IMG/VR virus record: IMGVR_UViG_3300030380_004858
Location: 1-36,363 of that record
Direction: 5' to 3' (one strand)
Length of the DNA: 36,363 nt
Source: a virus
In this document: piece after piece, positions 2,380 to 36,363 of the stretch
Layout of the letters: every line of letters begins with the position of its first letter
Position numbering within the stretch: the stretch's first letter is position 1
The notes under the pieces: generated by a model
Databases searched by the model: none
Seen by the model: only the letters and a program-made list of their open reading frames with translations
Told to the model about the DNA's origin: nothing
Program-made: the position numbers and the translations under genes

Positions 2380-2676
2380 ATGATTGATCAATTATTATCA
2401 AATAAAGATACAATTCCCTATGCTCTAGCATGTTTTTGCATCGTGCTCGCCATGGTTATTGGTTACATCTTCGGCTATCAAGAGCCATCTGCAGTATGTG
2501 CAGAATACATTATTACAGCAGATGAGCAGACTAAAAAAGCTCAGGAGCTAAATACAAAGCTAACTGAATGTGAGAGTAAAAAAGCAGGTGGCTGTGTGCT
2601 TAAGTGTAGCTCGATATGTGATAAGCAAGTTTTAAAAGCTTTAGAAAATCACAAAGCTATTTTATGTGAGGATTAG
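2380..2676 (+). CDS. Small Cys-rich protein with one N-terminal membrane segment
   Basis: A 98-aa protein. Residues about 13-33 (YALACFCIVLAMVIGYIFGY) form one TM helix with few preceding residues, predicting a signal-anchor with the C-terminal part outside the cytoplasm. The remainder is charged and helical, with Cys residues around 40, 64, 72, 76, 80 and 96. One N-terminal TM followed by a helical periplasmic domain is the layout of an inner-membrane spanin, and the next gene also encodes a membrane/coiled-coil protein. No sequence signature confirms this. GAGAGG just before the ATG serves as ribosome-binding site. Confidence 0.6.
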   Translation: MIDQLLSNKDTIPYALACFCIVLAMVIGYIFGYQEPSAVCAEYIITADEQTKKAQELNTKLTECESKKAGGCVLKCSSICDKQVLKALENHKAILCED

Positions 2677-2677
2677 C

Positions 2678-3121
2678 ATGATTACCCCATTTACTTTGCT
2701 GTTTATATTTACATCACTGTTACCTGCAAACATACCCCCAAATCTAATCTATATGGGGCCACATGTTGAGCCCATTCATAGTATTAAGGTAAGGCGAGGC
2801 CATGTAGTAGATGGTACATCTATGCTACTAACGCCATCTAACTTTATTAGGTTAAAAAGCGTTGTAGAAAACTCACCTGACCTTTGCACTCTGGCTGTAG
2901 ATGAATCTGTAAAAAAGTGCTTAGAGGGCTTAGAGAGAGAGAAGAGAATCATGCATGAGAGAGAGCTTGATGATCAGCTATTGATTAAAAGCTATGAATC
3001 AAGGTTGCTTAAAGTAGAGTCTGAGCTTGATGCTAGTTTACAAAAGCAACGTGTGCTATTATTTACAGCAGTAAGCTTAGCTTTAGTAGCTACAGCAGGT
3101 GTTACATTAGCAGTCAGGTGA
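2678..3121 (+). CDS. Spanin-like protein: N-terminal signal, coiled coil, C-terminal TM
   Basis: A 147-aa protein from ATG 2678, the first base after the previous stop plus one; an earlier in-frame start at 2666 overlaps the upstream gene. It opens with a hydrophobic signal-like stretch (residues about 4-16). Residues about 76-120 are a highly charged helix of coiled-coil type, and residues about 122-146 form a C-terminal TM helix ending in a basic residue. Signal at one end and TM at the other resembles single-gene (u-)spanins that join outer and inner membranes at lysis. However, no lipobox cysteine is visible near the signal, so outer-membrane attachment is unproven. Confidence 0.55.
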   Translation: MITPFTLLFIFTSLLPANIPPNLIYMGPHVEPIHSIKVRRGHVVDGTSMLLTPSNFIRLKSVVENSPDLCTLAVDESVKKCLEGLEREKRIMHERELDDQLLIKSYESRLLKVESELDASLQKQRVLLFTAVSLALVATAGVTLAVR

Positions 3122-3125
3122 TAAG

Positions 3126-3374
3126 ATGGAAACTATGAGCCCTATTAATATAGGCACGCTATTAGCATTAGTAGCATTTTGGTTTAGCACTACTAAAGAG
3201 AAAGCCCAGCAGGCTGAGGAACTTGGTAGGATGAAGCAGCAAATCAAAAGTCTTGAGACTAGGGCAGCTAATGTAGATGGGCAATTAATTGAGATTAACT
3301 CTAAACTAAATCAGCTAGTAGAATCTAATGCCAGATTAGAGACCCAACTTAGCTTGCTCGTAAGTCAGCAGTGA
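3126..3374 (+). CDS. Small N-TM/coiled-coil membrane protein (holin-accessory-like)
   Basis: An 82-aa protein. One hydrophobic segment near the N-terminus (residues about 8-21, IGTLLALVAFWFST) is followed by a long uninterrupted heptad-like helix rich in Glu, Gln, Leu and Lys to the end. This layout is seen in holin-associated and other phage membrane proteins, but I do not recognise the family. It forms a block of three consecutive small membrane genes with 2380 and 2678. Its stop overlaps the GTG start of the deaminase (GTGA at 3371-3374). Confidence 0.55.
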   Translation: METMSPINIGTLLALVAFWFSTTKEKAQQAEELGRMKQQIKSLETRAANVDGQLIEINSKLNQLVESNARLETQLSLLVSQQ

Positions 3375-12446: not shown

Positions 12447-12543
12447 AGAGTCTGCAGATCTATATTATCACATAGAGAAAACACTTTTATCTGAATTGAG
12501 AGAGCACTATGAAAAGCAAAGGCAAGTCAGGGCGCAAAACTAA
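12343..12543 (+). CDS. Possible small protein bridging methyltransferase and terminase genes
   Basis: A 66-aa open frame from ATG 12343, with GAGAGAGAGG just upstream. It overlaps the methyltransferase 3' end by 104 bases and the small terminase 5' end by 35 bases. The part unique to the gap (residues about 36-55, AKESADLYYHIEKTLLSELR) is a plausible helix. It fills an otherwise empty 62-base interval in a genome with almost no gaps, which favours a real gene, but the large overlaps argue for caution. Confidence 0.42.
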   Translation: MSESLEQGSDIGQGLEILARLRKHLIKDSSACLAKESADLYYHIEKTLLSELREHYEKQRQVRAQN

Positions 12544-12925
12544 AAAAACACCTGAGAGAGTAGAGAGGCTACTTAGCAATCTGAGAGAGGGCTTGAGTCA
12601 AGCAGCATCTATTAGTCAAGCCGGCATAGCAAAAACTACCTTCTATAATTGGCTTAAAGATGATGAGCAATTTAAAGCAGATGTAGAAGCTGCTGAGGAC
12701 TTTGCAGAGGCTGTGCAGATAGCTCAGATAAAAGCATTAGGTGAGGCTAAATTAGATTGGCGAGCTTATGCATGGTTATTAGAGCGCAGGTTCCCAGATA
12801 GATGGTCTGCTAAACGTGAGACTGAGGTAACTATAAATCAATCTAATGGGCATGCTGAGGTATTAAGCATGATCAAGCAGGCCCAAGGCCTTAACGCTGA
12901 TGATGAGCAGTCTGATGAGGACTAA
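12509..12925 (+). CDS. terS: Terminase small subunit
   Basis: A 138-aa protein. The N-terminal basic region and an HTH (LSNLREGLSQAASISQAGIAKTTFYNWLKDDEQFKADVEAA, about residues 21-61) are typical of small terminases that recognise the packaging site. FPDRWSAKRE (about 95-104) matches the conserved end of the central helical domain. It is directly followed by the large subunit, which starts on the next base after its stop. It would form a ring that binds the pac/cos site and activates the large subunit. Confidence 0.85.
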   Translation: MKSKGKSGRKTKKTPERVERLLSNLREGLSQAASISQAGIAKTTFYNWLKDDEQFKADVEAAEDFAEAVQIAQIKALGEAKLDWRAYAWLLERRFPDRWSAKRETEVTINQSNGHAEVLSMIKQAQGLNADDEQSDED

Positions 12926-14308
12926 ATGCATATTCAGCTTAATACATTGCAGAGATCAATTATCAGCAGAATCATTAATCAAGATGAGATTATATCTGCT
13001 AGGTGTGGATGGGGCTCAGGTAAGACCTCTGCATTAGTATTTAGCTTACTTACTGTGAGCAAGTGGCGTGCAGGGTGTAGCTCTCTGCTCATAACTGACA
13101 CTAACTCTAGATATAATTCAGTACTCATGCCTGAAATAGCAAAATGGCTAGAGCCTTTAGGATGGGTATATAATCACACTTTGAGGCTTTGGACAGATAC
13201 ACATACAGGCTCGACTGTGTGGTGCAGATCATACTTTAGGCCGGGCACTCGAGAAGCTACCCATAATCCTTTAGAGGGTCTAAATATAACTAGTGGCGTG
13301 TGCTTAATAGATGAGTGTCAAACATTAACAGCTGAGGTAGCCCATAAAGCTTTAGGGCGTTTAAGAAGTGGCCCTAGTCCTATCATGATCTTAGTTGGCT
13401 TGCCTGTGGCAGATGCTTGGTGGTGCAACATGGCAGAGGAGGCAGGCTTTGAGCCTCTGCTTTTTACTAGCTATGTTAATCAAGCTAATCTCTCAGATGC
13501 ATGGTTTGAGGCTACCAAGATGCTGCCGGAGGCAGAGCGTGAGGCTATGGTGATGAACAAGCCTGCACCACCTACAGGCCTTATCTATAATGAGTTTAAT
13601 CATAATCACATCATAGAGGGGTGGCAGTATCAAGAGAACATGACAGGGCGGATAGCTATAGACTGGGGTTTTAGAAAGCCTAGTGTATTAATTATGGCCT
13701 ATGATGATGAGTTACAAGCCTCTGTAATCTGCTATGAGATCAATCCGGCAGAGGTCACAACAGCCCAATTAGCTGAGATGATACTCAAGGTGGCGTGGCC
13801 TAGATCGCTTAAGGCTCAAGCCAATGGGCCTAAGGTATGGCTTGATGATGGTGTGGCAGATAAGGCCGGCAAGGCTCGCAATGATCAAACCGGCCAAAGT
13901 GCTTTTAGAGCAATGCGCAAACCACCTGAGCAAGGTGGGTTAGGTATGCACCTTAGGAATACATCAGACCCTATTAGGGTAGATATACTTAATGGCATAC
14001 AGAGGCTTAAGAGAGCCTTTAACTCTAAGCGTTATCTCATCACTAAAGAGGTATGGGATAGGGGCGAGCGAGCCAGAGGCAACAGCATTAGAAAAGCCCT
14101 GCTTAGCTACTCATGGGATAATAAAGAACAGCCTAAAAAAGATGGGCGAGAAGACCCACTAGATGCTCTGCGCTATGATTGCATTATGTTTAATTGGCAT
14201 GAGCTACAAGTAGACTCTAGACAATATACACCTAGAGCAAGGGGTGCAGGTTCTGTTAATAATAAACGTAAGGTCAGAGTAGGTAGAGCAAGTAGACAAA
14301 CTTTTTAG
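12926..14308 (+). CDS. terL: Terminase large subunit
   Basis: A 460-aa packaging ATPase/nuclease. Walker A is GWGSGKT (residues 28-34). Walker B is VCLIDE (125-130) with the catalytic Glu at 130. The C-terminal nuclease has RNase H-like acidic sites: D246 in AIDWG, the D307/D308 pair in VWLDDG, and D410/D413 in REDPLDALRYD. It cuts the concatemer and pumps DNA into the prohead through the portal. It is unusual that the portal gene does not follow; four other features (14318-16282) intervene. Packaging strategy (headful or cos) cannot be read directly. Confidence 0.93.
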   Translation: MHIQLNTLQRSIISRIINQDEIISARCGWGSGKTSALVFSLLTVSKWRAGCSSLLITDTNSRYNSVLMPEIAKWLEPLGWVYNHTLRLWTDTHTGSTVWCRSYFRPGTREATHNPLEGLNITSGVCLIDECQTLTAEVAHKALGRLRSGPSPIMILVGLPVADAWWCNMAEEAGFEPLLFTSYVNQANLSDAWFEATKMLPEAEREAMVMNKPAPPTGLIYNEFNHNHIIEGWQYQENMTGRIAIDWGFRKPSVLIMAYDDELQASVICYEINPAEVTTAQLAEMILKVAWPRSLKAQANGPKVWLDDGVADKAGKARNDQTGQSAFRAMRKPPEQGGLGMHLRNTSDPIRVDILNGIQRLKRAFNSKRYLITKEVWDRGERARGNSIRKALLSYSWDNKEQPKKDGREDPLDALRYDCIMFNWHELQVDSRQYTPRARGAGSVNNKRKVRVGRASRQTF

Positions 14309-14317
14309 GGCATACTA

Positions 14318-15145
14318 ATGGAATACACTGAGAGATACTTAGCTATAGTTTTATTAGACCTTATAGGCAGTACTGCATTTATTCAGAGCATGGGGGCTAT
14401 GAGGGGCGCAAGGTGGCTACAGTATCATGATAAGCTTGCTAGGTCTTTAGTGTATCGTTTCGAGGGCAGAGAGATAGATAGGTCTGATGGCTTCCTACTC
14501 AGCTTTGATAGGCCCATAGATGCTGTTAACTTTGCTTTACATTATCAGCAGAGCATACCTAATAAAACTAAGCTAGGTGCTCGAATAGGTGTACACTGGG
14601 GTAAGGTGGTAGAGGTCAAGCAAGATGAGCTACACACCATGATAGGTGCTAAATCAGTAGAGCTTGAGGGCATCTCTAAAAACATAGCAGCAAGAACCAT
14701 GAGCTTATGCCAAGCAGGGCAAGTGCTATTAACTGTAGAGGCTATGCAAGCAGTTAAAAGGCGTACTAATACATTTACACCCAAGGGCACCCGCTATGCT
14801 TTAGCAGGTGAGTATAGATTTAAAGGGGTTAGAAAGCCTCAACTCATCTATACAGTGGGCGCTACTATTGAGAGTCTACAGCCTCCCCCATCATCAGACA
14901 AAGCTAAAAAGATTGCAGGGCCTAGCAAGATCAAGAGCAAAGCTAGAGATAGGAAATTAATAGAATGGCTGTTCTGGGCTCTCTATCGTTTTGCCTTTGC
15001 TATGCTCCTATGGTTCTGTTTTGTAGCTATGCCCATCTTGAGCAATAGGCGCTATAGACTTATGAATGAGCTAGATGATTACTTCTATTGGATAGATTAT
15101 ATTATGCTATTTATAACTCGATTAAGGGAGGTGCTTAGTGTCTGA
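14318..15145 (+). CDS. Class III nucleotide cyclase with hydrophobic C-terminal anchor
   Basis: A 275-aa protein. Residues about 6-180 are an adenylate/guanylate cyclase (CHD) domain. Metal-binding Asp D14 is in LLDLIGST, and the second Asp D57 in EIDRSDGFLLSF. The transition-state pair N122 and R126 is in KNIAARTMSL, and GVHWGKV (91-97) and the closing RFKGVRKPQLIYTVG are also typical. All four catalytic positions look intact, so it may make a cyclic mononucleotide. A basic linker (about 194-213) precedes a strongly hydrophobic segment (215-241) and a second aromatic one (255-268), predicting membrane attachment. The substrate base cannot be decided: the usual adenine-specifying Lys position is altered. 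It sits in an operon between terminase and the membrane protein at 15138. Confidence 0.82.
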   Translation: MEYTERYLAIVLLDLIGSTAFIQSMGAMRGARWLQYHDKLARSLVYRFEGREIDRSDGFLLSFDRPIDAVNFALHYQQSIPNKTKLGARIGVHWGKVVEVKQDELHTMIGAKSVELEGISKNIAARTMSLCQAGQVLLTVEAMQAVKRRTNTFTPKGTRYALAGEYRFKGVRKPQLIYTVGATIESLQPPPSSDKAKKIAGPSKIKSKARDRKLIEWLFWALYRFAFAMLLWFCFVAMPILSNRRYRLMNELDDYFYWIDYIMLFITRLREVLSV

Positions 15146-15587
15146 TAATAAAACAGATAGAGAGCTAACAAGAGATGAGAAAGCTAAAAGAGGATGGTGG
15201 TTTAGTGTAGTATTCTTATTGATCGTTGTAGGCCTCATCCTATTTCTAACTTATGTAAAAATAGTTGATGAGAATAGGGATGTATTAGTAGGCATCCTAG
15301 GTATGGTCACAGGCTCGATAAGCAGCATGATGGCTATAGCCTCAGGGCGTGACCCCTCAGAAGTTGAGGAGCTTAAAGATAAGCTTAGTTCAGCCAATGC
15401 AGATAGAGAGGCGCTTATTGCTAGGCTAAGAGATGCCCAGATACAGATGCAGTTAAAGAATGATCAATTACTTGAGCTACAAACAGCAATCATTAACAAG
15501 CTCAGCCTCTTCAGTGATAAGCCCCCCATCACTACTAAATCAGAGCAAGATGTAGTTTTACATCCTGATGTTCAAAGGTGGCTATAA
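15138..15587 (+). CDS. Two-TM coiled-coil membrane protein coupled to the cyclase
   Basis: A 149-aa protein from GTG 15138, overlapping the cyclase by 8 bases, with GGGAGG (15126-15131) 6 bases upstream. TM1 is at residues about 21-40 and TM2 at 49-69, glycine- and serine-rich (GILGMVTGSISSMMAIASG). They form a hairpin with both ends in the cytoplasm, followed by a charged coiled coil (about 74-122). No cyclic-nucleotide-binding domain is recognisable. The tight coupling suggests it works with the cyclase, as effector or regulator, but a phage holin- or exclusion-type membrane protein is also compatible with the architecture. Confidence 0.6.
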   Translation: MSDNKTDRELTRDEKAKRGWWFSVVFLLIVVGLILFLTYVKIVDENRDVLVGILGMVTGSISSMMAIASGRDPSEVEELKDKLSSANADREALIARLRDAQIQMQLKNDQLLELQTAIINKLSLFSDKPPITTKSEQDVVLHPDVQRWL

Positions 15588-15628
15588 AAAACCCACACCC
15601 TAGGAGAGTCTAATTCTTAAGGTGCGGG
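15585..15628 (-). terminator. Intrinsic terminator for the minus-strand gene
   Basis: Read on the minus strand, CCCGCACC (15628-15621) pairs with GGTGTGGG (15599-15592) as an 8-bp stem with one G-U wobble, followed directly by six T (15591-15586). On the plus strand the same arms have an A-C mismatch and a weaker T-run (CTGTTTGTT), so termination of the cyclase operon is possible but poorer. The loop is about 21 bases. Confidence 0.6.
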
Positions 15629-15668
15629 CTGTTTGTTCAACTCTGGCACCTTACACTCTTAAGCTTTT

Positions 15669-15992
15669 TTATGACATAAAATCTTTGTTTGGATCATATA
15701 CAGATTCATTTTTTCTTGGGGGGGGTAGGGTAATGAATATATATTCATCTGAATCTTCTTTAAATTGTTCTTCAATTTGTTCCTCAATATAATTAACTAA
15801 ATCACTTACATGACCCCAGCTTTGATGTATAAAAATTAAAAACTCAGCACCGTTTGAAGCAGTAAGCTTAAAGTATTGTTGACCGTACAAGCCTAAAGTT
15901 ACTAAGTGTTTATATTTTAGGAACTCATAAAAGCCATCTGATTTTTGGTTTTGTATTTGTAGCCATACTCTATCTAATTGTTTATTGTTCAT
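15669..15992 (-). CDS. Minus-strand orphan gene between terminase and portal
   Basis: A 107-aa protein, soluble, with an alpha/beta look: an N-terminal helix (NKQLDRVWLQIQNQ), strands (FKLTASNGAEFLIFIHQS) and an acidic helix (VNYIEEQIEEQFKEDSDEY), then a proline- and charge-rich tail. No family recognised. It is the only minus-strand gene between 5550 and the window end. It has its own terminator (15585-15628) and AT-rich, A-ending codons unlike the flanking genes, all signs of an independently acquired moron. The start has no good ribosome-binding site (AAGTAAAAAATA upstream), so the start is less certain. Confidence 0.55.
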   Translation of the reverse strand: MNNKQLDRVWLQIQNQKSDGFYEFLKYKHLVTLGLYGQQYFKLTASNGAEFLIFIHQSWGHVSDLVNYIEEQIEEQFKEDSDEYIFITLPPPRKNESVYDPNKDFMS

Positions 15993-16072
15993 TATTTTTT
16001 ACTTCACTGTTCTCTCTGTAAATCTTACCCATGATTCTTATTTTCCTCTCAAGCGAGTAAATAAAAGCTTAA

Positions 16073-16127
16073 CCACCTTACCTAGCCTCAAGCTTTTTTA
16101 AGCTCGTGGACAGACTAGGCAAGGTGG
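16073..16127. other. Nested inverted repeat upstream of the late promoter
   Basis: CCACCTTACCTAG (16073-16085) and CTAGGCAAGGTGG (16115-16127) pair over 12 of 13 positions. Between them lies a second small hairpin, AGCTT (16091-16095) with AAGCT (16100-16104) around four T. No T-run follows the outer stem on either strand, so it is not a standard terminator. It could be a protein-binding site, a packaging site or an RNA structure in an upstream transcript. Confidence 0.5.
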
Positions 16128-16174
16128 GTAAACCTACTTAAAACACGCCAATCCCAAAAAGAAAGACTTATCAC

Positions 16175-16189
16175 GTTAACACTGTTAAC
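16175..16189. promoter_or_regulatory. 15-bp palindromic operator, copy 2
   Basis: GTTAACACTGTTAAC, the reverse complement of the palindrome at 7682-7696, with perfect 7-base half-sites. It ends 30 bases upstream of the late -35 box at 16220. A position upstream of -35 would suit an activator or a looping repressor. Confidence 0.6.
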
Positions 16190-16219
16190 ACTTCAAAGTC
16201 AAGCAAAAAAATAGATATA

Positions 16220-16248
16220 TTGCTAAAAACTTTATTTGTGCTTATAAT
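16220..16248 (+). promoter_or_regulatory. Strong promoter for the structural genes
   Basis: TTGCTA (16220-16225), a 17-base spacer and a perfect TATAAT (16243-16248). Transcripts would start near 16255, 28 bases before the portal ATG at 16283. This shows that the in-frame TTG at 16220 is part of the promoter and not the portal start. No other promoter of this quality is evident downstream until the fibre genes. Confidence 0.7.
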
Positions 16249-16282
16249 GCTCTTAGAGCCCATTAAATTTAATAGGGGTACT

Positions 16283-17689
16283 ATGAGCAAAGCAGAGAGA
16301 AACCCTAAGCACATGAGAGCCCTTGCGCCTCAGTTTAGAACTAGGGGCATTACAGGCACACAGCTCAATGGTGGCACCATTGCAGGTAAAGAGCAAAACC
16401 CTCGACTTAGTGGCCTTAACTGGGTTCAAGAGGCAGAGGAGATGCTTAGAACTGACCCTATCGTTAGGCGATCATGGCACATGCTAAGGCAGACCTTGCT
16501 AAGTGCTACATGGCGTTTTGAATCAGGCTTAGAGGGTGATGCAGTAGCTGATGAGCTTGCACGTTTTGCAAATGAGGCTTTTGGTTTCGATGGTTACTCT
16601 GGGCAGATGAGCCTAAGCTTTGAAGATCAGCTCGCTTATTTATTCGAGTTTGTCCCATTGGGCTATAGATATGCAGAGGAACTGTATAAGGTAGCCCCAG
16701 ACAGCACAGGGCAGGTTAGAGTGTGGCTAGATCAGTATGCAGATCGTGAGCCATCAGCGCATAACAAGTGGCTCTCTCGTGACTCACAGCAATTAGATGG
16801 TGTGGTGCAAAATGTAGTAGGTACTACTTACACACCTGAGCCTATACCTGCTCATAAATTATTACTGCTCACCCTAAATAAAACAGGTTCAAACTTTGAG
16901 GGCGTGGGCATGTTACGCCCTGTATGGTGGTGGTGGCGTACCAAGCAGAGAGCAAGCAATCTAATGTGTGTAGGCTTGGATAGATGGGCTGTGCCTACTC
17001 CTAAAGTGGTAGTAGATAGATCTCAAGCAGAGATGGCAGGCCTCACAGATGCAGATGTTAACTCTATGATAGATGATGCAGAGGCTCAAGCTCAAGCTTT
17101 CTTAGCTACTGAGCAGAGCTATCTAGTAGAGAATAATGTAGTTAAGTTTGAGAGCTATGCAGAACAGCCTAACTTATATGCACAAGGCCCGCTTGATATA
17201 ATCACTAAATGCAATGCAGAGATTAGTGCTAGCTTTTTAGCTCAGTTTGCTGATCTAGGCAATACTGAAACAGGCGCTAGGTCAGTAGGTGAGATACACC
17301 TTAGCATCTTTAGGCGTGCTGCTATTAATCTATGTGATATAGTGGCCTCTGCTATCAGTGGCATAGACAGAAGAGGCGGCGGTACCATTGGCAGATTGAT
17401 TCGATGGAACTATGGCGCAATAGATGCAAGCAAGTTACCTAAACTCACTCACACTGGGCTTGATACTGATGACCTTGCAGAGAGCATGGGCATGTTACCA
17501 CAGCTAGTACAAGCAGGTATCTTAACACCTGATGATGAATTAGAGAGAGCTATTAGAGAGAGACTAGGTGCAGGTGACTTGCCAGAGGAGGCGAGCAGAT
17601 CAGCACTAGAAAGAACAGCCTCTGCAAAGGGTGGCAGTAGTCTAAGTGCTTTCACTGAAAAGCTCATTAGGAGTAAGCGCAATGGCTAA
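16283..17689 (+). CDS. Portal protein (Mu gp29/DUF935-like)
   Basis: A 468-aa protein from ATG 16283, with AGGGG at 16273-16277 upstream. NWVQEAEEMLRTDPIVRRSWHMLRQTLLSATWRFE (about residues 49-83) is the opening pattern of DUF935-type portals. The central segment GVGMLRPVWWWWRTKQRASNLMCVGLDRWAVPTPKVVV (about 206-243) is the wing/stem region of the same family. It forms the dodecameric ring at the capsid vertex through which terminase packages DNA. The end overlaps the protease gene by 8 bases. Length fits the family. Confidence 0.85.
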   Translation: MSKAERNPKHMRALAPQFRTRGITGTQLNGGTIAGKEQNPRLSGLNWVQEAEEMLRTDPIVRRSWHMLRQTLLSATWRFESGLEGDAVADELARFANEAFGFDGYSGQMSLSFEDQLAYLFEFVPLGYRYAEELYKVAPDSTGQVRVWLDQYADREPSAHNKWLSRDSQQLDGVVQNVVGTTYTPEPIPAHKLLLLTLNKTGSNFEGVGMLRPVWWWWRTKQRASNLMCVGLDRWAVPTPKVVVDRSQAEMAGLTDADVNSMIDDAEAQAQAFLATEQSYLVENNVVKFESYAEQPNLYAQGPLDIITKCNAEISASFLAQFADLGNTETGARSVGEIHLSIFRRAAINLCDIVASAISGIDRRGGGTIGRLIRWNYGAIDASKLPKLTHTGLDTDDLAESMGMLPQLVQAGILTPDDELERAIRERLGAGDLPEEASRSALERTASAKGGSSLSAFTEKLIRSKRNG

Positions 17690-34260: not shown

Positions 34261-34941
34261 ATGCCAACTAAAGCAGAATTAGAAAAGCAGATTCAAGCTC
34301 TTGTGCTAAGGGCTGAGAGCCTTGAGGGCGACATTAGGCGTACTAAGCGTGCTCTAGGTCAAGCTCATTTAGACATGAATGTTACAGTAAATGAGGGGCA
34401 TAATCATTTAACCCCTCACGTTTCAGAGCATGCCCGCAATGCTATCGCCAGAGCTAAGGCAGAGCTTGACTCTGTAGTCATAGACCCATGCTCTAGAATA
34501 GATATTTATATTAAATCTACTCAGGGCATTGGTTGGAGCTGGGTTGAGCCATACACTAAAAATGGACAATTTGCGTGGTGTGGTGCCTTTGCTGCATTTT
34601 GTTATACTAATGTAAATATGCAAACTAAAAAGAAGATCTTTCCAAGCTGTTATAGGATGTATTCTAACTGGGCTAAAACATCTCGCAAAGTCTCTATTGA
34701 GACTATAGAAGCAGGTGATATTGTCGTCGTGTATACATCAAAAAGAAGTGTTCAGGGTGATCACATAACACTATGTGTAGATGCATCAACTGCTAATGAT
34801 GGTTACATAACTACTATTGAGGGCAATGCTCATGGCACCTTAGGCAATGGCCAAAAGGGTGAGGGCGTTATTACTCGACAGCGTGAGCTACACGAGGTGG
34901 CACATGTATATAGATTGCTTGGTCTAGACTTTGATGAGTGA
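34261..34941 (+). CDS. CHAP/NlpC-type lysin
   Basis: A 226-aa protein. The N-terminal about 60 residues form a charged helix. Residues about 98-190 are a CHAP-like amidase/endopeptidase domain with the catalytic triad visible: Cys107 in WCGAF, His168 in GDHITL and Asn189 in EGNAHG. VSIETIEAGDIVVV (144-157) precedes the His, as in the family. It would cleave peptidoglycan, either as endolysin for host lysis or as a virion-bound hydrolase. The neighbouring 73-aa two-TM protein suggests the lysis role. No signal peptide is visible, so a holin would be needed for export. The gene begins on the base after the previous stop. Confidence 0.8.
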   Translation: MPTKAELEKQIQALVLRAESLEGDIRRTKRALGQAHLDMNVTVNEGHNHLTPHVSEHARNAIARAKAELDSVVIDPCSRIDIYIKSTQGIGWSWVEPYTKNGQFAWCGAFAAFCYTNVNMQTKKKIFPSCYRMYSNWAKTSRKVSIETIEAGDIVVVYTSKRSVQGDHITLCVDASTANDGYITTIEGNAHGTLGNGQKGEGVITRQRELHEVAHVYRLLGLDFDE

Positions 34942-35152
34942 TCAGCAAGCGACATTGACAAAAAAAGCAGGCGGTCGAAAGGCATTAGCTTTTTATAGTG
35001 CCCTTGCCTGCTGTTTTATTTTAGCTCTATTAGACAAAGCACATGCAGAGGTTTTAGGATTGATTGACACATTATTCTTTATTTATGCCGGTGCGAATGT
35101 CATGGCAAAGCGACAACTACAACCACAAACAAAGGACAGATCAAATGAGTAA
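34934..35152 (+). CDS. Holin candidate, two-TM protein
   Basis: A 72-aa protein from ATG 34934 (TTG 34931 is possible) overlapping the lysin by 8 bases. Two hydrophobic segments, about residues 19-34 (LAFYSALACCFILALL) and 39-57 (AEVLGLIDTLFFIYAGANVM), form a hairpin, and a short charged C-terminus follows. Size, topology and position next to the lysin fit a class II-like holin. Compare the separate membrane-protein cluster 2380-3374, which could hold further lysis genes. The next start overlaps its end (8 bases). Confidence 0.68.
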   Translation: MSDQQATLTKKAGGRKALAFYSALACCFILALLDKAHAEVLGLIDTLFFIYAGANVMAKRQLQPQTKDRSNE

Positions 35153-35535: not shown

Positions 35536-36363
35536 ATGGCTATTTCATTAGGTGGATTTTCAGGTGGTGGTGGTGGAGCAGGCTCAGACACTCTTGATGA
35601 TGTTACAGGCAGAGGAGCAACAACAACAAATGCAATCACCGTTGGTGGTGTCTCCATCGGTTCAGCTTTTAGTCTGCCTACTTCCGATGGTTTAGCAAAT
35701 CAAGTTCTTCAAACAAATGGAAGTGGCTCTTTAAGCTTTGCAACTTTGGACTTCACTGGAGGCCTTGAATACAAAGGCTCATTCAATGCAACAGCAGGTA
35801 CTCCAAGTCTAGCAACTGCTCAAAAGGGCGACTATTACAAGATTGATACAGCCGGAACAATTTATGGACAAACATGGGCCGTTAATGATTCACTGATTAT
35901 AAATGCAGATATGGGCGGTTCAATCACAAATAGCAAGATTGATAAGATCGACAACACCGAGCCGACAAATGTTCTGATCACTACTAATAATTTAAGCGAT
36001 TTGGACAACGCTACAACAGCACGAACGAATCTTGGACTTGGCAACGCAGCAACGCTGACCACAGGTGTGGCGAATGGAAACGTGATTGTAGCGGACTCTA
36101 CTGGACTTCCTGCGATTGATGGTAGTCAATTGACAGGCATAACAGCGACCGATTCAACTAAGTTGGCTATTGCTAACAACTTAAGCGATTTGGACAACGC
36201 TACAACAGCACGAACGAATCTTGGACTTGGCAATGTTGCAACGCTGACAACAGGTGTGGCAAATGGAAACGTAATTGTAGCTGACTCTACTGGACTTCCT
36301 GCGATTGATGGTAGTCAGTTGACAGGGATCACAGCGACCGATTCAACTAAGTTGGCTATTGCT
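35536..36363 (+). CDS. Tail fibre, 5' part (continues at position 19)
   Basis: 276 codons from ATG 35536 to the window end with no stop; AAGGAG sits 9 bases before the ATG. The N-terminal part (residues 1-40) has GGFSGGGGGAGSDTLDDVTGRGATTT, an attachment-type element. A middle domain (about 75-140) contains LEYKGSFNATAG... KGDYYKIDTAGTI, a pattern seen in fibres of other phages. Two complete 63-residue repeats start at 35986 and 36175, the second ending exactly at base 36363. Reading on from position 19 gives two more repeats, a partial one and the C-terminal domain. Confidence 0.88.
   Translation, partial: MAISLGGFSGGGGGAGSDTLDDVTGRGATTTNAITVGGVSIGSAFSLPTSDGLANQVLQTNGSGSLSFATLDFTGGLEYKGSFNATAGTPSLATAQKGDYYKIDTAGTIYGQTWAVNDSLIINADMGGSITNSKIDKIDNTEPTNVLITTNNLSDLDNATTARTNLGLGNAATLTTGVANGNVIVADSTGLPAIDGSQLTGITATDSTKLAIANNLSDLDNATTARTNLGLGNVATLTTGVANGNVIVADSTGLPAIDGSQLTGITATDSTKLAIA
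35986..36363 (+). repeat. 189-bp in-frame tandem repeats of the fibre (units 1-2)
   Basis: Units begin at 35986 and 36175, each 189 bp (63 codons) with the NLSDLDNATTARTNLGLG opening and a VIVADSTGLPAIDGSQLTG core. The same units continue at 19, 208 and, partially, 397. Because the window ends inside the array, the true copy number could be larger than five. Confidence 0.9.
36346..36363 (+). repeat. 18-bp terminal direct repeat (circular overlap)
   Basis: ACTAAGTTGGCTATTGCT at the window end is identical to 1-18. Merging the two keeps both the fibre reading frame and the 189-bp repeat spacing (36185 + 189 corresponds to 29). Confidence 0.9.

Follow-up and report, generated by a model that had tools for sequence, protein, structure and literature searches.

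Why would a bacterial virus carry, among its packaging and head genes, a nucleotide cyclase gene that runs directly into a gene for a small membrane protein? The question is raised by the virus record IMGVR_UViG_3300030380_004858, all 36,363 bases of which were analysed (hereafter the window), where two open reading frames (ORFs) sharing 8 bp, the first of 275 aa with an ATG start and the second of 149 aa with a GTG start, stand in the gene order terS, terL (terminase small and large subunits), cyclase, partner, portal (Table 1). A first-pass annotation, made from the letters of the sequence, had described them as an intact class III cyclase with a hydrophobic C-terminus, overlapping by 8 bp (15138-15145) a two-transmembrane (two-TM), coiled-coil protein and inserted between terL and portal, and had suggested that they act as a pair, perhaps for superinfection exclusion, lysis timing or a change in host signalling. 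The coordinates and gene descriptions (ORFs 14318-15145 and 15138-15587), the cyclase motifs, the C-terminal segment, the overlap and the flanking genes (phrog_5653 and PF06074) were all found to be correct, and a functional cyclase-membrane protein pair in phages is strongly supported by the survey described below. What emerges is that many uncultured bacterial viruses, small and giant, carry the two genes together, in what looks like a virus-owned signalling switch.

Linkage and conservation of the two genes

The locus set (n = 262) comprises the results of eight viral-contig scans together with the window's own locus (L001). The best 80 loci were kept per collection scan, with 243, 231, 100, 285 and 314 relatives found in five of the scans; the sample is biased toward well-conserved members, and orphan genes are possible among the lower-ranked relatives. 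Hidden Markov models (HMMs) of both proteins located both genes, on one strand, in 258 of the 262 loci, whereas four loci (L028, L029, L184, and L186) contain the cyclase only and lie on contigs that terminate no more than 12 bases from the cyclase match. The partner without the cyclase was encountered in 0/262 loci, so that the gene-neighbour survey suggested at the outset did reveal conserved co-occurrence. As several loci lie on shared contigs and L001 is the window itself, removal of identical pairs left 154 distinct regions with both genes on the same strand, in which the pair is adjacent (HMM matches -100 to 300 bp apart) in 144, separated in 8, and reversed in 2. Thus, the linkage of cyclase and partner far exceeds chance. 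In an earlier set of 130 distinct regions the genes overlap in 103, most commonly by 4 bp (66 regions), while the separated pairs have 727-3984 bp between them, with intervening genes in seven of the eight, those that were mapped.

The carriers include small terL/portal phages of about 36 kb as well as large phages with other gene orders, among which L097 (162 kb), L104 (240 kb), L112 (297 kb), and L149 (275 kb) present several distinct neighbourhoods; the largest carrier contig spans 376 kb (L209). It may be asked whether the two genes share nothing but ancestry, as unrelated neighbours in a phage core genome. The conserved order terS-terL-cyclase-partner-portal in the small phages speaks for this, and linkage there is in part synteny because of that common order. 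Synteny alone is nevertheless no full explanation, since large phages with different gene orders also keep the linkage, as do the separated and reversed pairs among the 154 regions, and we regard ancestry alone as a most improbable account. One of the reversed pairs lies in a 97-kb contig (L043) that has neighbouring gene families in common with L073 and L088, while its cyclase shares 60% identity with the window cyclase and 40% with that of L073; this mismatch in kinship suggests movement of the module, or of its cyclase, from phage to phage. Genes were also observed between terL and cyclase, namely ThyX in L047 and L077 and a DNA methyltransferase in L053, which mark the terL-cyclase interval as prone to gene turnover, through which the pair persists.

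Outside these collections, tblastn searches of GenBank phages (50,697 records) and of plasmids (PLSDB, 72,556) gave no relative of the partner, and the phage records gave none of the cyclase; the window's terL and major capsid protein had no match in the phage set either. Two scans of GTDB genome contigs, each with two short peptide patterns drawn from alignments that predate the giant-phage variants, gave 21 and 97 pattern matches, none of which was confirmed as a relative. Other phage proteins of the cyclase fold, from uncultured Caudovirales entries, are found in BFVD.

We were curious to see how the two genes have diverged relative to each other. The rows used represent 106 distinct pairs (104 full cyclases and 105 partners); TM statistics draw on 128 cyclases and 126 partners from the 130 regions, and identity and invariance on 124 pairs with 121 distinct full cyclases. 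Across the 124 pairs, median identities are 61% (cyclase, variable tail included) and 69% (partner), with a correlation between the two (Spearman 0.73; 0 of 200 Mantel permutations as high). Partner identity was the higher in 20 of 20 comparisons, and the nonsynonymous distance (dN) of the partner the lower in 19, with window-L013 as the exception. Between the window and L073, for instance, the partners are 75% identical (dN 0.20, 15/41 fourfold sites alike), compared with 39% for the cyclases (dN 0.69, 10/37 fourfold sites alike). For most pairs NG86 gave no computable synonymous distance (dS). As the fourfold sites have largely diverged, recent DNA exchange was rejected as the source of partner identity. 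Partner identity also lies above that of ThyX in all 14 loci that contain both (ThyX 37-62%, partner 64-77%). To judge from the sequences, the partner pattern is therefore one of constraint rather than recent exchange, in a sample that is biased upward.

Predicted properties of cyclase and partner

Profile searches place the window cyclase in class III, with matches to NCBIfam TIGR04510 (5.1e-45, cyclase residues 9-198) and to the LipJ profile (8.3e-15), both of which are matched by 30/30 aligned cyclases; Pfam PF00211 gave 21.1 bits against a cut-off of 21.9, and 22.7 bits when the protein was scored with its in-frame neighbours. The AlphaFold2 (AF2) model, built on a 15-sequence alignment (mean pLDDT 84.9, pTM 0.71), shows a class III domain followed by helices 210-242 and 253-274. 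Within model residues 3-189, VIA-align superposed it on Ma1120 (5d0h; Z 22.9, root-mean-square deviation (rmsd) 1.9, 160 aligned) and on Rv1900c (1ybt; Z 22.9, rmsd 2.1, 171 aligned); PycC structures were not among the 50 matches listed by Foldseek or VIA, from which no conclusion was drawn. In a set of 121 distinct full-length cyclases that includes the window's, D14, D54, D57, K112, K121, and R126 never vary, and 118 members retain N122. With its metal aspartates, transition-state Asn/Arg and predicted fold, the protein is on the model a class III cyclase, which presumably is catalytically active. The three cyclases with Ala at the transition-state Asn position (L106:4321-5199, L107:5087-5977, and L124:5145-5948) possibly have lower activity or another mechanism. 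The C-terminal segment is conserved in kind, not in sequence, as 116 of 128 distinct cyclases reach a Kyte-Doolittle value (KD19) of at least 1.6 there, and the cyclase was single-copy in all 36 virus records searched.

In class III cyclases the base position is occupied by Lys in adenylate cyclases (ACs) and by Glu in guanylate cyclases (GCs), as part of the pairs Lys-Asp (ATP) or Glu-Cys (GTP). Alignment with Rv1900c revealed that the phage cyclases are one residue shorter just before the second metal Asp, which brings D54 to the AC-Lys/GC-Glu position; its counterpart in Rv1900c is Asn, and E115 (E 108, N 10, S 3 of 121) stands opposite an Asp. Instead of a canonical pair the phage enzymes would thus have D54 and E115, in a register of D54 that hangs on the one-residue gap. 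Pocket residues of PycC are reported to vary by clade (BcPycC Y50/D94/R97, AnPycC F60/K104/F109, EaPycC F100/R142/Q144; PMC11224242), and the substrate of the phage cyclase is accordingly not readable from D54/E115.

The partner contains two hydrophobic segments, both above 1.77 in the partners of 126/130 distinct regions (the other regions being incomplete or without the landmark), and its invariant residues in 29 aligned sequences are concentrated in TM1, a short loop (N46 R47 D48), TM2 and the long helix that follows. The window partner matched no Pfam or NCBIfam family over its cut-off, the best matches among PDB sequences were unrelated (E 0.47), and Pfam searches of the 29 aligned members, the window protein among them, gave no cyclic-nucleotide-binding (CNB) domain. 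PHROGs returned six matches at E up to 1, none of them labelled lysis, the best being phrog_9990 of unknown function (2.7e-4).

Small size and two hydrophobic segments, together with a place in the packaging/head run of the window, would also suit a role in lysis timing, with the partner as a holin-like or anti-holin protein timed by the cyclase. HOL2, another small two-TM family, is present in 18 of the 45 representative loci (near-identical ones included), and the L073 locus also holds a transglycosylase (SLT 1.3e-13) and an amidase (1.5e-13). However, no lysis family is found among the partner matches, nor a holin family among the 25 Pfam families listed out of the 28 matched; a known holin family, a match to which would, together with wide occurrence of the partner without a cyclase, have spoken against the proposal of the first-pass annotation, was thus seen neither in PHROGs nor among these Pfam families. 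In the window the holin slot may be taken by the gene right after the endolysin gene, which encodes 73 aa with two hydrophobic segments; the two genes together are likely the lysis cassette (34261-35152), and the lysis-timing idea loses some force through this. Holins are usually fast-evolving, which the partner is not. We therefore consider lysis timing quite improbable. A direct assignment of the partner as a holin is not favoured, as no holin match was seen in PHROGs or among the listed Pfam families and as endolysin and two-segment gene lie elsewhere in the window; a common origin of partner and HOL2 was rejected (hhalign probability 5.7, nothing over the inclusion threshold).

Table 1. 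Features of the window discussed in the text (KD, Kyte-Doolittle hydropathy; invariance in distinct full-length cyclases or in 29 partner sequences)
Feature	Position	Strand	Details
Cyclase gene	14318..15145	+	275 aa; ORF begins 9 bases past terL stop; TIGR04510 5.1e-45
Class III catalytic domain, residues 1-185	14318..14872	+	AF2 pLDDT 84.9; VIA Z 22.9 to 5d0h and 1ybt
D14, first metal aspartate	14357..14359	+	121/121
D54, at base-defining position of other class III cyclases	14477..14479	+	121/121; register from LipJ alignment
D57, second metal aspartate	14486..14488	+	121/121
N122 to R126, transition-state residues	14681..14695	+	N 118/121 (A in 3), R 121/121
Hydrophobic C-terminal segment, residues 225-243	14990..15046	+	KD 1.91; model helix 210-242; likely membrane anchor
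Gene overlap, 8 bp	15138..15145	+	ORF coordinates of cyclase and partner
Partner gene	15138..15587	+	149 aa; two hydrophobic segments, then long helix; without known family
Partner TM1, residues 22-40	15201..15257	+	KD 2.85
Partner TM2, residues 49-67, Gly/Ser/Thr-rich	15282..15338	+	KD 1.94; invariant G52 G55 T58 G59 S62 M64 I67
Partner long helix, residues 73-125	15354..15512	+	AF2; coiled-coil-like by eye; invariant D89 R90 L93 I94 R96 L97 R98 D99 I102 Q105
terS (context)	12509..12925	+	Terminase small subunit; phrog_4102 7.5e-24
terL (context)	12926..14308	+	Terminase large subunit; phrog_5653 1.6e-6, weak/divergent
Portal protein, Mu type (context)	16220..17689	+	PF06074 4.2e-25
Endolysin gene	34261-34941		phrog_21357 2.7e-11
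73-aa gene right after endolysin	34931-35152		Two hydrophobic segments; no PHROG match

Possible roles of the pair

We tentatively favour the reading that cyclase and partner form a phage-owned second-messenger module, in which the cyclase product, or the active cyclase, acts on a two-TM effector in lytic infection. The cyclase would be held in the inner membrane through its C-terminal hydrophobic segment and would convert a nucleoside triphosphate to a 3',5'-cyclic mononucleotide. The partner, as a dedicated effector, might be an oligomer of two-TM chains with both termini in the cytoplasm, and the product, or the product-forming cyclase itself, might act on its conserved cytoplasmic helix, upon which the Gly/Ser/Thr-rich TM2 would rearrange and alter the permeability or energisation of the infected cell's membrane. 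Such action would take place during lytic infection, and its most likely purpose would be either the exclusion or abortion of competing phages or a timed change in the host membrane.

Besides the linkage and the conservation described above, three observations led us to favour an effector. Of 43 virus records, many of them possibly fragments, none was found to contain PF00027, the receptor domain usual for cyclic nucleotides, which is present in 10/14 control genomes; this leaves the partner as the only linked receptor candidate. A tyrosine integrase was detected in 1 of 36 virus records in a search for PF00589 as the only recombinase family, and this rarity fits a mainly lytic life, although it is no proof. 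Finally, the pair starts 9 bases after terL within the packaging/head run, which suggests late expression; a promoter scan scored under the mean of shuffled sequences, and a hairpin 3' of the partner was no stronger than in shuffled sequence (z -0.5).

Several points weigh against the module. The activities of both proteins are predicted ones. The partner model has a moderate mean pLDDT of 69.8 (block means of 60-87 in helix 73-125) and shows residues 7-68 as a single unbroken helix, not a TM hairpin, so that the two-TM assignment rests on hydropathy; of the first-pass description of the partner, the two segments were recovered in this way, and the coiled coil was recognised by eye only. The structure predictions it had suggested for the single proteins gave the expected class III fold for the cyclase, whereas for the partner Foldseek found no PDB chain and VIA nothing. 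Pfam and NCBIfam profile searches detected no recognisable ligand-binding domain in the partner, and AbrB, probably matched through composition, is hit by 19/29 partners (best 9.7e-5), more and better than SLATT. The base-specifying residues of the cyclase are non-canonical and, as read from the alignment, its substrate is unpredictable. As to conservation, the cyclase identity figures include the variable C-terminal tail, and in small phages the partner is unexceptional (L011: terL 81%, portal 83%, partner 73%; L014: terL 72%, portal 78%, partner 77%). It is also unclear why a lytic phage, which kills its cell, would need a self-damaging effector; the partner may serve in the virion or in the host membrane, and the cyclase could act via a host receptor instead.

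The last point leads to a different role for the partner, namely that of a membrane sensor or scaffold whose helix docks on the cyclase dimer and regulates it, with the product passing to a host CRP-type receptor and reprogramming metabolism. The hydrophobic C-terminal segment of the cyclase itself and the frequent 4-bp gene overlap (66/130) are in line with such a regulator, as is the lack of a phage receptor in the 43 records when PF00027 is present in most control genomes. On the other hand, a mere regulator should change along with its enzyme, whereas the partner is usually more conserved than the cyclase, and separation up to 4 kb as well as reversal are tolerated. On balance we find a regulatory partner rather unlikely.

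The second-messenger module may also be conceived in a bolder form, as a messenger system exclusive to viruses, in phages from about 36 kb to more than 300 kb, with an own cyclase bearing the invariant Asp as an unusual base-recognition residue, possibly a non-canonical cyclic nucleotide, and a new-family two-TM receptor or channel that would sense by its cytoplasmic helix rather than a CNB domain, in the service of phage-phage conflict or host-membrane control. This form we hold to be doubtful. Cyclic-nucleotide signalling in phage biology has so far mostly been viewed as a host defence that phages disarm. The more than 150 distinct regions described here point instead to phages with a cyclase of their own and a membrane protein dedicated to it, the two being kept together in phages of differing gene order. 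If confirmed, the module would bring signalling into lytic infection as a further layer and would represent a new class of two-TM effectors, perhaps with a new messenger; the pair is small enough for direct testing in E. coli.

The neighbourhood of the pair offers further observations. HOL2 proteins are 83-116 aa long with two TM segments and the motif 'KSKKF.AYLIAD.GWK', and copies were mapped at L073:8188-8448, L088:6079-6345, L099:7297-7548, L112:6863-7117 and 14 more loci, directly 3' of the partner in L088 and L099; the L112 copy has no Pfam match, the L088 copy matches a holin PHROG weakly (0.077), and no HOL2 relative was detected in the window (best E 0.37). A family of short lipoprotein-like proteins with conserved cysteines, some near-identical, is present in 14 of the 45 representative loci and lies immediately upstream of the cyclase in nine (members include L112:4913-5125, L134:4913-5122, and L151:4901-5116). 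Large carriers encode ThyX and an adenylosuccinate-synthetase-like protein, PurA/PurZ-like by eye (L097:118-1233, L043:1630-2697), a combination that we presume might indicate modified adenine in the phage DNA. Partner-to-portal distance differs among small phages, and the 632-base gap in the window (15588-16219) includes a 107-aa minus-strand ORF (15669-15992). Three small genes at window positions 2380-3374, two with TM segments, adjoin a dCMP deaminase gene, and the last of them weakly matches an Rz-like spanin (phrog_739, 1.5e-4). Window bases 1-18 are identical to 36346-36363 and the first 60 bases are repeated inside the window, in tail-fibre genes that are repetitive; the record may represent an almost complete genome whose sequence was opened in this region.

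Comparison with known systems

A phage-borne cyclase as such is already known, as an adenylate cyclase has been described within pelagiphage curli clusters (PMC9599517). No report of a phage cyclase with a membrane partner was found in the literature covered, mostly titles and beginnings of abstracts, with subscription papers outside it. Pycsar resembles the phage pair in its two-gene design with a class III-motif cyclase and, for PycTM, a membrane effector (PMC11224242). The phage pair differs in that it is virus-borne, its partner has no CNB domain and its cyclase has a hydrophobic C-terminus. PADLOC models of PycC gave 0 matches to the window cyclase at E 1 and matched 16/30 aligned cyclases weakly (best 7.3e-6), while TIGR04510 scored far stronger, and against PDB sequences the phage cyclase profile reached 3.4e-15 with LipJ compared with 0.068 with 8jsz, the sole entry named uridylate cyclase. 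Pycsar membership was rejected, as the partner shows no CNB domain and the PycC matches are weak, the cyclase being nearer to TIGR04510 and LipJ than to PycC; the restraint of the first-pass annotation in not claiming it was well placed.

The likeness to Pycsar raises the thought of counter-defence, in which the cyclase would flood or mis-signal the cyclic-nucleotide immunity of the host while the partner blocks host membrane effectors. Pycsar operates with class III-motif cyclases and cyclic mononucleotides, phages attack a Pycsar-type signal with Apyc1 (PMC9117128), and the weak PycC matches, although not extending to the window's cyclase, point the same way. However, flooding would activate abortive-infection effectors unless the product were a non-activating analogue, and the nearest cyclases are not PycC; counter-defence thus appears very improbable to us.

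TIGR04510 (mod_pep_cyc, putative peptide modification system cyclase) is the best cyclase match in 30/30 members (best 1.3e-48), but the window match extends over profile positions 7-204 out of 814, with 154 bits where the cut-off is 400, and full membership was rejected as the match reaches neither the curated cut-off nor full length. LipJ/Rv1900c and Ma1120, both mycobacterial, are the nearest solved structures by sequence and fold, from which the phage cyclase differs by being one residue shorter before the second metal Asp, by the Asp at the base position, by its hydrophobic C-terminus and by the lack of a lipase domain. A KwaA profile match in 1/30 cyclases (0.0012) was set aside as a match of TM composition.

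For the partner, a comparison offers itself with Csx23 of type III CRISPR systems, a tetrameric membrane effector that binds cA4 through a small cytoplasmic domain with a novel fold (PMC11014256). Csx23 shows that gating by a cyclic nucleotide is possible in a membrane effector that has none of the nucleotide-binding folds known before. Its ligand comes from a CRISPR system, not from a class III cyclase, and no match between Csx23 and the partner was found in sequence or in structure (Foldseek on the pLDDT 69.8 model). SLATT proteins, which are predicted nucleotide-responsive 2TM pores (PMC7159879), share the two TM segments, and SLATT_fungal is weakly matched by 17/29 partners (best 3.5e-4; window protein 16.6 bits, cut-off 26.5); membership was rejected, since the window protein scores under the cut-off and AbrB scores better. 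By analogy, Csx23 and SLATT are precedents rather than evidence of kinship. We surmise that the phage pair works in the manner of cyclase and membrane-effector systems, such as Pycsar with PycTM or Csx23, with a real chance that it represents a new kind.

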